The notes beneath the pieces were generated by a model. That model searched no databases. It was not told where the DNA came from and was given only the letters and a program-made list of their open reading frames with translations. The position numbers were made by a program, and so were the translations under genes. A stretch of DNA of 64,000 nt. Source: Pseudomonadota bacterium. GTDB lineage: Bacteria; Pseudomonadota; Alphaproteobacteria; SHVZ01. Where the stretch lies: positions 1-64,000 of the forward strand of contig JACQAG010000059.1 of assembly GCA_016195085.1 (NCBI GenBank), written 5' to 3'. This document shows, one piece after another, positions 58,989-64,000 of the stretch. The stretch's first letter is position 1. Each line of letters starts with the position of its first letter.

Positions 58989-60168
58989 TCACGGTCCGGC
59001 TGCGGCGAAGCGACCAGCGAACAACCGGAAGATTGAGGCTTCGGGGTAAGCCGTCGGCAGCCAGACGCGGATGCGGGCGGCGCTCTCTACCACACGGGCG
59101 GCTACTTTGATCAGCCGAAGCCGCAGCATGGTGAACTCAGCGGTCTTCCAGCATGAGCGCCTGGGAGAGGCGGCGCGCAGCGTGTGCAATAGCCAGTAGG
59201 CCGCGGTGTGCAGGATGAGGCGGAATTGGTTGGCGCGTGGGCGGCGGCAGGATGTGCGATCCGAGGCAAGCTGGGCCTTGTGCAGCTTGATGAAGTTCTC
59301 GGCCTGGCCGCGTCCGCAGTAGACAGTCTCATAGAGGTGCTCGGGCGAACCGGCGAGGGTGGTGACGACGTAGCGCACATCGAAGCCCTTTGCGGTGGCT
59401 TCGAGGCGGGCAATGACGCGGCGCGGCTTGGTCCAGCTCTTCGCCCCATAGCCGAAGGTCGTCCACGTTCGGCTCCTGGCGTCCCCGGCCTCGGCGCGGC
59501 GCACGTAGAGGTCGTCGGCGACGGCCCGGACCTGGGCATGCAGAATGTCGTTGCCGGCGAGCCCGAAGATGTAATCGACGCCGTTCGCCTCGCACCACGC
59601 CGTCGCTTCAGGCCGGGCGTAATGGCTGTCGCCGCGCCAGCAGATGCGGGTATCGGGCCATTGGCGGCGGATACGGCGGACGACGTGCTTGATGATGGTG
59701 CGGACCTCTGTTCCTGCGGGCGTCTTGCCGGGCCGCAGGATGACGACCACAGGCTTGCCGGTCGTCGCCTCGTAGATGTGGATCGGCAGGAAGCAGCGCT
59801 CGTCGTAATGGGCATTGAAGAGCGAGAGCTGCTGGTGCCCATGGACCCGATCGAGCGTATCGTCGATGTCGAGGGTGATCGCCTCGGGTGAGCGCTTCCA
59901 TGTGGCGCAGAACAGATCGACCATCGCCGCCATCATCCGCGCGATCTCGATCTTCGAGGGCGCATTCTCCAGGCGTGACATGGTCGGTTGCGAGCACAGC
60001 CCTGAGCCGGTTTCAGGCAGTCGCCCAACCGCCATCTTGAATACCGGGTCCGCACGCAAGGTGTCGCAGTCGTCCGCGTCCTCGTAGCCCGCCGCCATCG
60101 AAGGCTGCTGTCACCTTCTTGCGCGCTACCGCTGGCAGGTCAAAGGGGAGAAGACTATCATCGGCCAT
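58989..60168 (-). pseudogene. IS1380-family transposase with internal deletion
   Basis: The N-terminal start MADDSLLPFDLPAVARKKVT (from the ATG at 60168) and AAFDGG are in one frame. The remainder starting AAGYEDADDCDTLRADPVFK is in another. An IS1380 transposase runs about 440 residues. Here some 50-60 residues between these parts are missing and the frame shifts, leaving a 369-residue open frame from an internal ATG. Conserved catalytic-region segments (TLDIDDTLDRVHGHQQ, GDSHYARPEA and YVVTTLAGSPEHLYETVYC) are intact, but the protein is unlikely to be active. No terminal inverted repeats were identified. Confidence 0.82.
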
Positions 60169-60316: not shown

Positions 60317-61312
60317 GTGAGGCGGCGGGAATTTATCACTGTTGCCGCCGCCGGCACGCTCGCGCGCCCGCGTGTCGGGCTCGCTCAACAAGCGGTGCCG
60401 GCTCAACGCATCGGCGTCTTCATTCCGTTCGCCGAAAGTGATCGCACCCAGCAGCAATATTATCTCGGCTTCAAGGAGAAGCTGAGGCACCTGGGCTGGG
60501 TCGAAGGCCGGACGGTCGAGTTCATCGAGCGCTGGCGCCCCGGCGCGTCGATCGCCGATTTCCAATCCACAGCCGCAGAGCTGGTCAACCAAGGTCCGGA
60601 TCTGATCTTCTTGGTCAGCACGCCGGCGCTCAAAGCGGTGGCGGCGGCGACCGGCTTGATCCCGATCGTCTTCGTCGGCGTCTCCGACCCGGTGGGACAG
60701 GGCCTGATCTCGAATCTGGCCCGTCCCGGCCGCAACCTCACCGGATTCACCTTCTTCGACCCAGAGATGGGCGGCAAATGGCTGGGATTGTTGAAGGAAA
60801 TGGCTCCTCGGGTGGTGCGGGTCCGGGTCGTTTTCAACCCCAACACGGCGCCGCAGGCAAAGCTGTTCCTCGATTCGATCGAGGCGGCGGCAGCGTCATT
60901 CGGCGTCGTCGCCAATGCCGCTCCCGTGCACGACGCGGCGGAGATCGAGGCGACACTCGGCGCGCTGGAGCGCGAAGCCAATGGCGGCCTGTTTTTCCCC
61001 TCCGACACTTTCACCATCAACCATCGCGCCCTCGTCCTCGGTCTGACGACGCGCTATCGTCTGCCGGCGCTCTATGCGCACGACTTCTTCACACGTGAGG
61101 GCGGCTTGGCCTCCTACAGCGTCGCGGTCGCCGCGCAATACGTGCAGGCGGCCGAATATGCCGACGTCATCCTCAAGGGCGCCTTTGCGGGCGATCTGCC
61201 GGTGCAGCAGCCGACGAAGTTCGAGTTGGTCATCAATCTCAAGACCGCGAAGGCGCTCGGCCTCGGCGTGCCACAGTCGCTGCTCGCGCTCGCCGACGAG
61301 GTGATCGAATAA
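60317..61312 (+). CDS. ABC transporter substrate-binding protein (TrpX-like)
   Basis: The 331-residue periplasmic binding protein starts at GTG with RRREFITVAAAGTLARP, a twin-arginine-like signal. It contains the ABC_sub_bind fold with NQGPDLIFLVSTPALKAVAA, PIVFVGVSDPVGQGLISNLA and RPGRNLTGFTFFDPEMGGKW. No permease or ATPase gene lies nearby, so it is an orphan. The ligand is unknown. TrpX-type proteins have been linked to aromatic amino acid uptake. It is convergent with trpS. Confidence 0.85.
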   Translation: MRRREFITVAAAGTLARPRVGLAQQAVPAQRIGVFIPFAESDRTQQQYYLGFKEKLRHLGWVEGRTVEFIERWRPGASIADFQSTAAELVNQGPDLIFLVSTPALKAVAAATGLIPIVFVGVSDPVGQGLISNLARPGRNLTGFTFFDPEMGGKWLGLLKEMAPRVVRVRVVFNPNTAPQAKLFLDSIEAAAASFGVVANAAPVHDAAEIEATLGALEREANGGLFFPSDTFTINHRALVLGLTTRYRLPALYAHDFFTREGGLASYSVAVAAQYVQAAEYADVILKGAFAGDLPVQQPTKFELVINLKTAKALGLGVPQSLLALADEVIE

Positions 61313-61470
61313 GCGACGGCCATGCCGTGAGCGAGTCTCGCCATGCGTGGCAGCCCGCGACCCCATCGTCTAGCTCAATTTAGAACCGCTGATGTTGAGT
61401 CCGATCAATGGACTCGGCGCTGTCACCCGCCCGATTTACCGCTCCGTCACGAATAATCCAGGCTAGTCCT

Positions 61471-62469
61471 CTAAGGCCTGAGGAAGCCGACGATGTCGTG
61501 GGTCTTCCTCAGGATCGGCGCGGCGCTTTCCCGCGCCCGCTCCGCGCCGTCGCGCAGCACGCTATCGACGTAGCCCGGATCCGCTTTCAGCCTTTGCATC
61601 TCCGCGTTGATCGGGCCCAGGACCGAGACCGCGAGCTCGGCCAGCGCGCTCTTGAACTCGGAGAACTGCTTGCCGGCGAAGCGCCTCAAGGCATCGGCGC
61701 TGTCGATGTCGGCGAGCCCGGCATAGATGCCGATGAGATTCGCCGCCTCCGGCCGCTTCTCCAGCTCCGCCAGCGAGTCCGGCAAGGGATGGGGATCGGT
61801 TTTCGCCCGGCGGATCTTGTTGGCGATGGCGTCGCGATCGTCGGTCAGGTTGATCCGGCTCATGTCGGAGGCATCCGATTTGCTCATCTTCTTGGTGCCG
61901 TCGCGAAGGCTCATGATGCGCGCACCCGGACCCAGGATCAGCGGTTCCGGCAACGGGAAGAACTCGATGTTGAACATGCTGTTGAAAGCCTTGGCGATGT
62001 CGCGGGTGAGCTCGACATGCTGCTTCTGGTCATCACCCACCGGCACCGCATCGGCGTGATGCACGAGAATGTCGGCGGCCATCAGGTTGGGATAGACGTA
62101 GAGTCCCGTGGTGACGTTCTCTTGGTTCTTTCCGGCCTTGTCCTTGAACTGCGTCATCCGGTTGAGCCAGCCTAGCCGCGCCACGCAGTTGAAGATCCAG
62201 CCGAGCTCGGCGTGCTCGTGCACCTGGCTCTGGTTAAAGAGGATATGAGTCTTGGCATCGATGCCGGCCGCCATGTAGGCGGCCGCCACCTCGCGGGTGG
62301 CCGCGCGCAGCTCGGCCGGGTCCTGCGGGATGGTGATGGCATGCAGATCGACGACACAGAAGATGCAGCGGGCGCGGTCCTGCAGCTTCACCCAGTTCCT
62401 GAGCGCGCCGAGATAGTTGCCGAGGTGCAGATTCCCGGTTGGCTGCATGCCGGAGAAGATGAGGTTCAT
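61471..62469 (-). CDS. trpS: Tryptophanyl-tRNA synthetase
   Basis: TrpS charges tRNA-Trp. The chosen ATG gives 332 residues, [20 protein letters not shown], with GGAGGAG nine bases upstream. The class I signatures are GNLHLGNYL (HIGH-like) and [46 protein letters not shown] and [17 protein letters not shown] are standard. A longer in-frame start exists 36 bases upstream. A leader with adjacent Trp codons and an intrinsic terminator lies in the 196-bp gap upstream, so trpS is likely controlled by tryptophan or tRNA charging. It is downstream of murJ. Confidence 0.96.
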
Positions 62470-62508
62470 CGTTGTTGCTCCTCCACGCGGATCCCCTGAG
62501 CGCATAAC

Positions 62509-62541
62509 AAAAGACCCACCGAGAGATCGTCCAGGTGGGCC
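62509..62541 (-). terminator. Intrinsic terminator in the trpS leader (attenuator candidate)
   Basis: On the minus strand GGCCCACC (62541-62534) pairs with GGTGGGTC (62520-62513), eight pairs with one G-U, around a 13-base loop, followed by TTTTGTT. It lies 40 bases before the trpS start. Its 5' arm contains CACCTG, which can pair with CAGGTG at 62585-62580 in the leader coding part, giving a possible antiterminator. Confidence 0.8.
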
Positions 62542-62569
62542 GGTTACCAGCGACGAAGATGGACTCGGA

Positions 62570-62656
62570 TCAGCCCTCGCACCTGCCCAAAGAGCGCCGC
62601 CACCAGCGAAGGGCGGAGCGGAAGGCGACGGCCAAGGCGGGACGGGTCGCGGACAT
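62570..62656 (-). CDS. Candidate trp leader peptide with tandem Trp codons
   Basis: A 28-codon frame starts ATG at 62656, immediately downstream of the murJ stop, and ends TGA at 62570. Codons 18 and 19 are both TGG (62605-62600), in the context ALRWWRRSL. It ends before an antiterminator segment and a terminator stem that precede trpS. An AGAGG lies before the ATG, but a promoter placed so that transcription starts at the ATG (62663-62692) would make it leaderless, as described for the rhizobial trp leader. A ribosome stalled at the Trp codons would leave 62585-62580 free; one at the stop codon would cover it. Confidence 0.6.
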
Positions 62657-62662
62657 GGCCTC

Positions 62663-62692
62663 TCTTTAGCCGTCTTGGCTCGGCTCCGTCAA
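62663..62692 (-). promoter_or_regulatory. Candidate promoter of the trp leader and trpS
   Basis: TTGACG (minus strand, 62692-62687) is a near-consensus -35. TAAAGA (62668-62663) is a poor but possible -10 with 18 bp spacing. The position puts the predicted start of transcription at about 62656, the A of the leader ATG. This lies within the murJ 3' end, so trpS could also be read from the murJ transcript. Confidence 0.4.
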
Positions 62693-64000
62693 CCGCGGGG
62701 AGCGGCTGAGGAAGCTGCGGAGTTCGGCCGGCCGCGCGGCACCGGTGGCCAGCACCAGAAGCGCAAAGGCGAGGCCGCCGGCGCCGATCAGGAGTACCAG
62801 CGCCCCGATGCTCTCCAGCCCGTGCCCCATCAGCATGGGCTCGGCCAAGCCCGCGGCCCACCAGACGAAGCCGCCCATGCCGAGGGCGGCCAGAGCCAGC
62901 CGCGGCAGCCGCCTTGTCGCTTCGGCGTCCAGGTGGAACTGGCCGCGACGGGCGAGCCCGGCCCAGAGCAGGCCCGCATTCAGCCAGGCGGCGATCGAGG
63001 TGCCGATGGCGATGCCGACATGGGCGAGATAGGGCATGAGGGCGAGAATGATCGCGAGGTTGGCGGCAATCGCCACGGCCGCGATCTTGACCGGCGTCGC
63101 CGTGTCGTGGCGCGCGAGGTAGCCCGGCGTCATCACCTTGATGAGCACGAAGGCCGGCAGACCCATGGCGAAGGCGGCGAGAGCGCGTGCGGTCAGGATC
63201 GCGTCCTCGGCGGAGAAGGCGCGGTGCTCGAACAGCACATGCACGATCGGCAGTGCCAAGGCGATGAGCCCTGCCGCGGCCGGCAAGGTGGCAAGGGCCG
63301 CCACCTCGAGCGCGCGGTTCTGGGTGGTGTTCGCCGCTTCGGGCTCGCGCGCGAGCTGCTGGGTCAGCAAGGGCAGGAGTGCGGTGCCGACGGAGTAGCC
63401 GACCACGCCCAGAGGCAGCTGCGCCACCCGATCGGCGTAATAAAGGTAGGCGACCGAACCGCCCGGCAGCAGGGTGGCCATCACCGTGCTGATGACCAGG
63501 CTCACCTGGGTCACGCCGGCCCCGAGCGTGGCCGGGACCATCAGCTTCAGCATCCGGCGGACATTGGGCGTGAGACGCGGCCTGACCAGCCGCAAGCGGA
63601 CGCCGGCGCGTTTGGCGGCGTAGACGAGGTGGATGAACTGCGCGATGCCGGCCAGTGCCACGCCGTAGGAGAGCGCATGGGCGACGGTGGGCACGAAGGG
63701 GGTGATGGCGAAGAGGGCGGCGATCTGCACGAGGTTGAACAGGTTCGGCGCCGAGGCCATGGCGGCAAAGCGCCCGAGCGCGTTCAAGATGCTGCCGAGG
63801 AAGGCGACCAAGGTGATGAGCAGGAGGTAGGGAAACATCACCCGCCCGAACAGCAGCGCCGTGGCGACCTGCTCCCCATCCCCGGTGAAGCCCGGCGCGA
63901 TCACGCTCAAGACCCAGGGCATCGCCCCTTCGACGGCCAGCACGAAAAGGCCGAGCACGGCGATGAGAACCGCCAGAGTCTCCTCGGCGAAGCTGAGCGC
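62666..64000 (-). CDS. murJ: Lipid II flippase MurJ, C-terminal part (cut by window edge)
   Basis: The visible 444 residues lack about the first 80. MurJ flips lipid II to the periplasmic side for peptidoglycan synthesis. Segments include [60 protein letters not shown] (with [20 protein letters not shown]) and [20 protein letters not shown] with typical MurJ charged loops. The order murJ-trpS is known in alphaproteobacteria. A second MviN-like gene at 54379 is more divergent. The TAA stop precedes the trp leader by nine bases. Confidence 0.92.

Follow-up and report, generated by a model that had tools for sequence, protein, structure and literature searches.

The sole gene for tryptophanyl-tRNA synthetase (trpS) found in this alphaproteobacterial genome is probably controlled by ribosome-mediated transcription attenuation that responds to the charging of tRNA-Trp. 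The gene lies in a stretch of 64,000 nucleotides (the window), where the order on the minus strand is murJ, leader, trpS. A PF00579 search identified one further protein in the genome, and this is TyrS. The attenuator reading is built on the sequence elements listed below, on the improbability of their joint occurrence, on a promoter upstream of the leader and on the lack of one downstream of it.

62687..62692, minus strand: -35 element TTGACG of the presumed trpS promoter, a class-type motif and the best of the region
62666..64000, minus strand: murJ (3' part), the gene 5' of the leader (TIGR01695, 309 bits, NCBIfam)
62663..62670, minus strand: -10 region GCTAAAGA (GCTAAA / CTAAAG / TAAAGA), overlapping the murJ stop codon TAA (62668-62666)
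62570..62656, minus strand: predicted leader frame of 28 codons, ATG at 62656 to TGA at 62570, its start approximately at +1
62600..62605, minus strand: adjacent Trp codons TGG TGG, codons 18-19 (sequence reading)
62575..62624, minus strand: protector hairpin (1:2) over the Trp codons, minimum free energy -21.1 kcal/mol
62581..62589, minus strand: segment 2, UGGGCAGGU, candidate 5' arm of the antiterminator (folding)
62536..62544, minus strand: segment 3, ACCGGCCCA, candidate 3' arm of the antiterminator, overlapping the terminator 5' arm (folding)
62506..62541, minus strand: intrinsic terminator, 8-bp stem and TTTTGTT, -17.2 kcal/mol
62534..62541, minus strand: terminator 5' arm GGCCCACC (sequence reading)
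62513..62520, minus strand: terminator 3' arm GGTGGGTC (sequence reading)
62506..62512, minus strand: U tract TTTTGTT (sequence reading)
62478..62484, minus strand: Shine-Dalgarno sequence of trpS, GGAGGAG (sequence reading)
62469, minus strand: trpS start codon ATG, downstream of the Shine-Dalgarno sequence
61471..62469, minus strand: trpS, tryptophanyl-tRNA synthetase (TIGR00233, 322 bits, NCBIfam)

A preliminary description of this DNA had reported the 28-codon frame with its TGG TGG pair and TGA, the terminator before trpS, the complementary CAGGTG and CACCTG and the TTGACG/TAAAGA pair (62692-62687 and 62668-62663), and every one of these elements lies exactly where it was placed. The leader ATG sits 9 nt past the murJ stop codon, the terminator is found approximately 125 nt downstream of that stop codon, and a gap of 36 nt lies between the U tract and the trpS ATG. 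The leader peptide has no NCBIfam match, and the genome holds no paralogous copy of the leader DNA. Convergent with trpS is a gene for an ABC transporter substrate-binding protein (60317-61312, plus strand), the top NCBIfam match of which is TrpX (tryptophan), at 118 of 390 bits and thus far below the cut-off. An IS1380-family transposase (58989-60098, minus strand, 351 bits) is located two genes away from trpS; the model matched it only from position 58 onward, and its N terminus is apparently short.

In many members of the class, trpS is served by a promoter of its own, TTGAC-N16-18-[CG]ATAA, which usually lies approximately 77 nt upstream of the conserved FSG codons and, where murJ adjoins, is placed at or just behind the murJ end. 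The window has a promoter at the corresponding place, TTGACGG...GCTAAAGA, but 229 nt before the conserved trpS codons as against the class median of approximately 77, so that the leader represents about 150 nt that relatives lack. This presumed trpS promoter has the top score in the region, a score equalled or exceeded in 2.3% of 294-nt windows drawn at random from the genome. Its -10 element is weak, as noted before: the promoter scores 9.7 against a median of 22 in relatives, whose scores are flattered by a matrix built from sites picked for the TTGAC...[CG]ATAA motif. Both promoter and terminator were located by scripted scans, a stock promoter and terminator scan having missed them. From the leader stop codon to trpS no promoter stands out: the best score there is -6.1, and 92% of random windows exceed it. 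The terminator hairpin is overlapped by a weak pair, TGGACG-N19-GTTATG. Placed behind the promoter and ahead of an essential gene of which no second copy was found, the terminator must be either leaky or regulated.

The leader ATG follows TAAAGA by 7 nt, a spacing that fits a transcript starting at the leader start codon, as in Sinorhizobium meliloti trpL, where the start codon is at the RNA 5' end (PMC7298713). With the murJ stop codon only 9 nt upstream, ribosomes arriving from murJ could also re-initiate at the leader ATG on read-through RNA, in which case the switch could work on both transcripts.

The coincidence of a Trp-Trp frame and a terminator is rare by chance. When the 190-nt leader was shuffled 4,000 times with its dinucleotides preserved, a terminator of comparable quality appeared 174 times, a Trp-Trp frame 49 times, and both in this order once. 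The genome sequence searched (464 kb, both strands, thus 928 kb of strand) contains 82 terminator-like sites; a Trp-Trp frame is present in the 80 nt upstream of only two of them, the one in the window leader and one other. An accident is unlikely because the coincidence falls on the gene of tryptophanyl-tRNA synthetase.

These figures also bear on the likeliest alternative, namely that the hairpin serves to end the murJ transcript, that an unrecognised promoter located in or behind the hairpin drives trpS, and that the Trp-Trp frame is coincidental. The position of the hairpin, some 125 nt behind the murJ stop, agrees with such a role, as do the weak promoter-like pair overlapping it and the fact that the leader is common to no relative read. 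It is nevertheless unlikely: the best promoter candidate behind the leader stop and before trpS scores below most random windows, the class-type promoter precedes the leader, and only 36 nt are available between the U tract and the trpS ATG. Relatives have their trpS promoter at the murJ end, as a rule with no terminator behind it, and a Trp-Trp frame would occur by chance at approximately 1 in 80 terminator-like sites.

For attenuation of trpS, we infer a start site, translation of the leader, ribosome stalling, antitermination and a response to tryptophan. RNA polymerase would start at the class-type promoter at the murJ end, or read through from murJ, and would transcribe the leader frame with its two adjacent Trp codons first. 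With ample charged tRNA-Trp, the ribosome would clear the Trp codons, and the terminator (62541-62506) would fold and stop transcription before trpS. With uncharged tRNA-Trp, the ribosome would stall at codons 18-19 and open the protector hairpin (62624-62575), so that segment 2 (62589-62581) would become available for pairing with the terminator 5' arm, and trpS would be transcribed. The pairing of segments 2 and 3 could form before the terminator 3' arm is made.

Folding predictions are in partial agreement with this scheme. The fold without a ribosome consists of the protector hairpin (-21.1 kcal/mol), in which GCCC upstream of the Trp codons pairs with GGGC downstream, and the terminator (-17.2 kcal/mol); the protector hairpin is also seen in the fold of the full leader. 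The antiterminator had been described as limited to the six pairs of CAGGTG (62585-62580) with CACCTG (62537-62532). That complementarity exists and shows up as a later folding intermediate, but the strongest antiterminator pairing is that of UGGGCAGGU (62589-62581) with ACCGGCCCA (62544-62536), at -20.7 kcal/mol.

In a scan of ribosome positions, the model had the terminator 5' arm sequestered at 0.62 and 0.45 with Trp codons 18 and 19, respectively, in the A site, as against 0.02-0.05 just past the Trp codons and 0.05 without a ribosome. Sequestration also reached approximately 0.7-0.86 at several earlier positions and 0.78 at one later position. For a stall at the Trp codons, the model agrees in direction with the attenuation geometry put forward in the preliminary description; for a ribosome at the stop codon, which in that description covers CAGGTG, the value is 0.39 rather than near zero. 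The stalling model has the right direction and an imperfect contrast.

The antiterminator is no independent evidence, since 488 of 1000 shuffles of the segment behind the Trp codons pair equally well. The energy of the whole-leader fold is ordinary in comparison with shuffles (z -0.14). Equilibrium folds favour the finished terminator even with a stalled ribosome, so that the scheme would depend on kinetics. The shuffle result and the equilibrium folds would also suit a premature terminator that is constitutive and leaky, holding trpS at a low level or yielding a small RNA of approximately 150 nt without sensing tryptophan, and the attenuator of S. meliloti does give a trans-acting small RNA in addition (PMC7298713). 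Such a terminator leaves unexplained two adjacent Trp codons before trpS, the joint chance of which was one in 4,000 shuffles, and it is improbable, more so than termination of the murJ transcript. Least probable by far is direct sensing of tryptophan or tRNA-Trp by a T-box, a riboswitch or a protein-binding leader: T-boxes regulate trpS in Firmicutes but are not known to be typical of Alphaproteobacteria, the frame takes up most of the leader, and in 61400-64000 no Rfam covariance model of a cis-regulatory RNA (T-box, Trp leader or other) gave more than a match far below its curated cut-off.

The case for attenuation is as follows. A Trp-Trp frame and a terminator precede the only gene whose product charges tRNA-Trp, the scans place a class-type promoter ahead of the leader and no further one in the interval from leader to trpS, and an unconditional terminator would silence an essential single-copy gene. 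The three-part hairpin geometry and the direction of the modelled sequestration support it further, as do precedents in Streptomyces trpS (PMC1262725; PMC8079986). It is weakened by a leader unconserved in the relatives read, an antiterminator like that of shuffles, a weak -10 and an ordinary fold energy.

The pheM-pheST attenuator of Escherichia coli and its relatives controls a synthetase operon through a leader peptide with cognate codons. The window leader, if it acts as proposed, resembles it in placing an aminoacyl-tRNA synthetase gene under a cognate-codon leader; pheM-pheST differs in responding to phenylalanine and in belonging to Gammaproteobacteria. PMC1262725 cites pheST as a case of synthetase attenuation, and hisS leaders have been reported in bacilli (PMC2965389).

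Streptomyces has published attenuators of trpS itself, predicted or supported by RNA-seq (PMC1262725; PMC8079986), and for Caulobacter a leader coding sequence on the trpS mRNA is on record (PMC4117421); trpS attenuation, of which the preliminary description knew no case, is thus not without precedent. The Streptomyces systems, trpL2-trpS of S. lividans (SLIV_21112) and S. avermitilis trpS2 (PMC8079986; PMC1262725), share with the window a Trp-coding leader frame before trpS and a proposed premature termination. They belong to a different phylum, and no sequence likeness to the window was seen. The S. lividans trpL2 transcript begins at the leader start codon (leaderless), a start that the window leader may share; unlike the window leader, trpL2 has one Trp codon (MMTRTCTQLWRAA) and no reported U tract (PMC8079986). 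In Caulobacter crescentus, ribosome profiling identified a small leader coding sequence on the trpS mRNA (Schrader et al., PMC4117421, Fig. 2B). This small frame is translated and, like the candidate leader of the window, precedes trpS in an alphaproteobacterium; the paper text does not give its sequence or Trp content.

Experimentally known Trp attenuation in Alphaproteobacteria centres on trpE. The trpL-trpE(G) system of S. meliloti (rnTrpL/peTrpL; PMC7298713) is alike in being alphaproteobacterial and in having consecutive Trp codons and a transcription terminator; it differs in controlling anthranilate synthase rather than trpS. The trpE of the window's own genome (L197) begins 17 nt past the stop codon of the preceding gene and has no Trp leader. 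That preceding gene looks ppiD-like by eye.

The mechanism and the target gene are therefore already known, and the instance in this alphaproteobacterial lineage is new. It adds a testable alphaproteobacterial case of a synthetase gene governed by the charging of its own tRNA through a leader peptide. If the reading is true, tRNA charging is controlled at the charging enzyme itself.

Conservation of the Trp codons or terminator in relatives had been proposed as a check, and none was found in the six same-family genomes, all of one other genus (g2), or in the outgroups read. The leader is absent from all six of the former, from the nearest outgroups and from every other outgroup read. In genus g2 (L004-L009), trpS retains a TTGACC...GATAAA promoter and lacks the leader. 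At L004, the one g2 locus checked for its neighbour, a divergent gene rather than murJ lies upstream of trpS. A search for similar leader DNA in 385 genomes of the class gave six partial matches, 31-68 nt long; the best falls within a stretch of long genes at a distance from trpS, and the other five are shorter still. The window leader has apparently arisen independently, and its absence from the close relatives examined suggests that such switches can arise fast between a conserved promoter and its gene.

Among 339 distinct trpS upstream regions of the class, the window and a single clade of family f5 are the only convincing cases of a Trp frame with a terminator or hairpin. Joint matches at L166, L176 and L216 were judged to be chance frames. 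The f5 clade comprises five genomes of genus g6 (L276, L222, L277, L278, L279) with a Trp-rich small frame, which has two or three Trp codons close to its end, and a GC hairpin 70-150 nt before trpS, and shows that the architecture exists elsewhere in the class. Their frames end in SRRWWRA, QRWWRA, LWRGWRRA, LWLPGLWRRA and RWRGWWRA, and the hairpin, GGCGCG...CGCGCC or a variant, sits at the stop codon, 70-80 nt upstream of trpS. Like the window leader, they have two or more Trp codons right before the hairpin; unlike it, they end in ..WRA* or ..WRRA*, their hairpin and stop codon overlap, only some of them have a U tract, and they bear no sequence likeness to it. The f5 leader is kept in the five genomes closest in TrpS and absent from the rest of genus g6 read.

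These comparisons raise the possibility, offered tentatively, that attenuation of trpS by Trp leader peptides arose more than once in Alphaproteobacteria, in the window lineage and in f5, with different hairpin layouts, and that in the window species the synthetase gene rather than trpE carries the leader. The f5 clade supplies complete genomes for testing a conserved trpS leader. At another locus, L387 (G409), a strong hairpin ACCCCGG...CCGGGGT followed by TTTTTGG lies approximately 70-47 nt before the conserved trpS codons, without a Trp-rich frame, and is possibly another premature trpS terminator.
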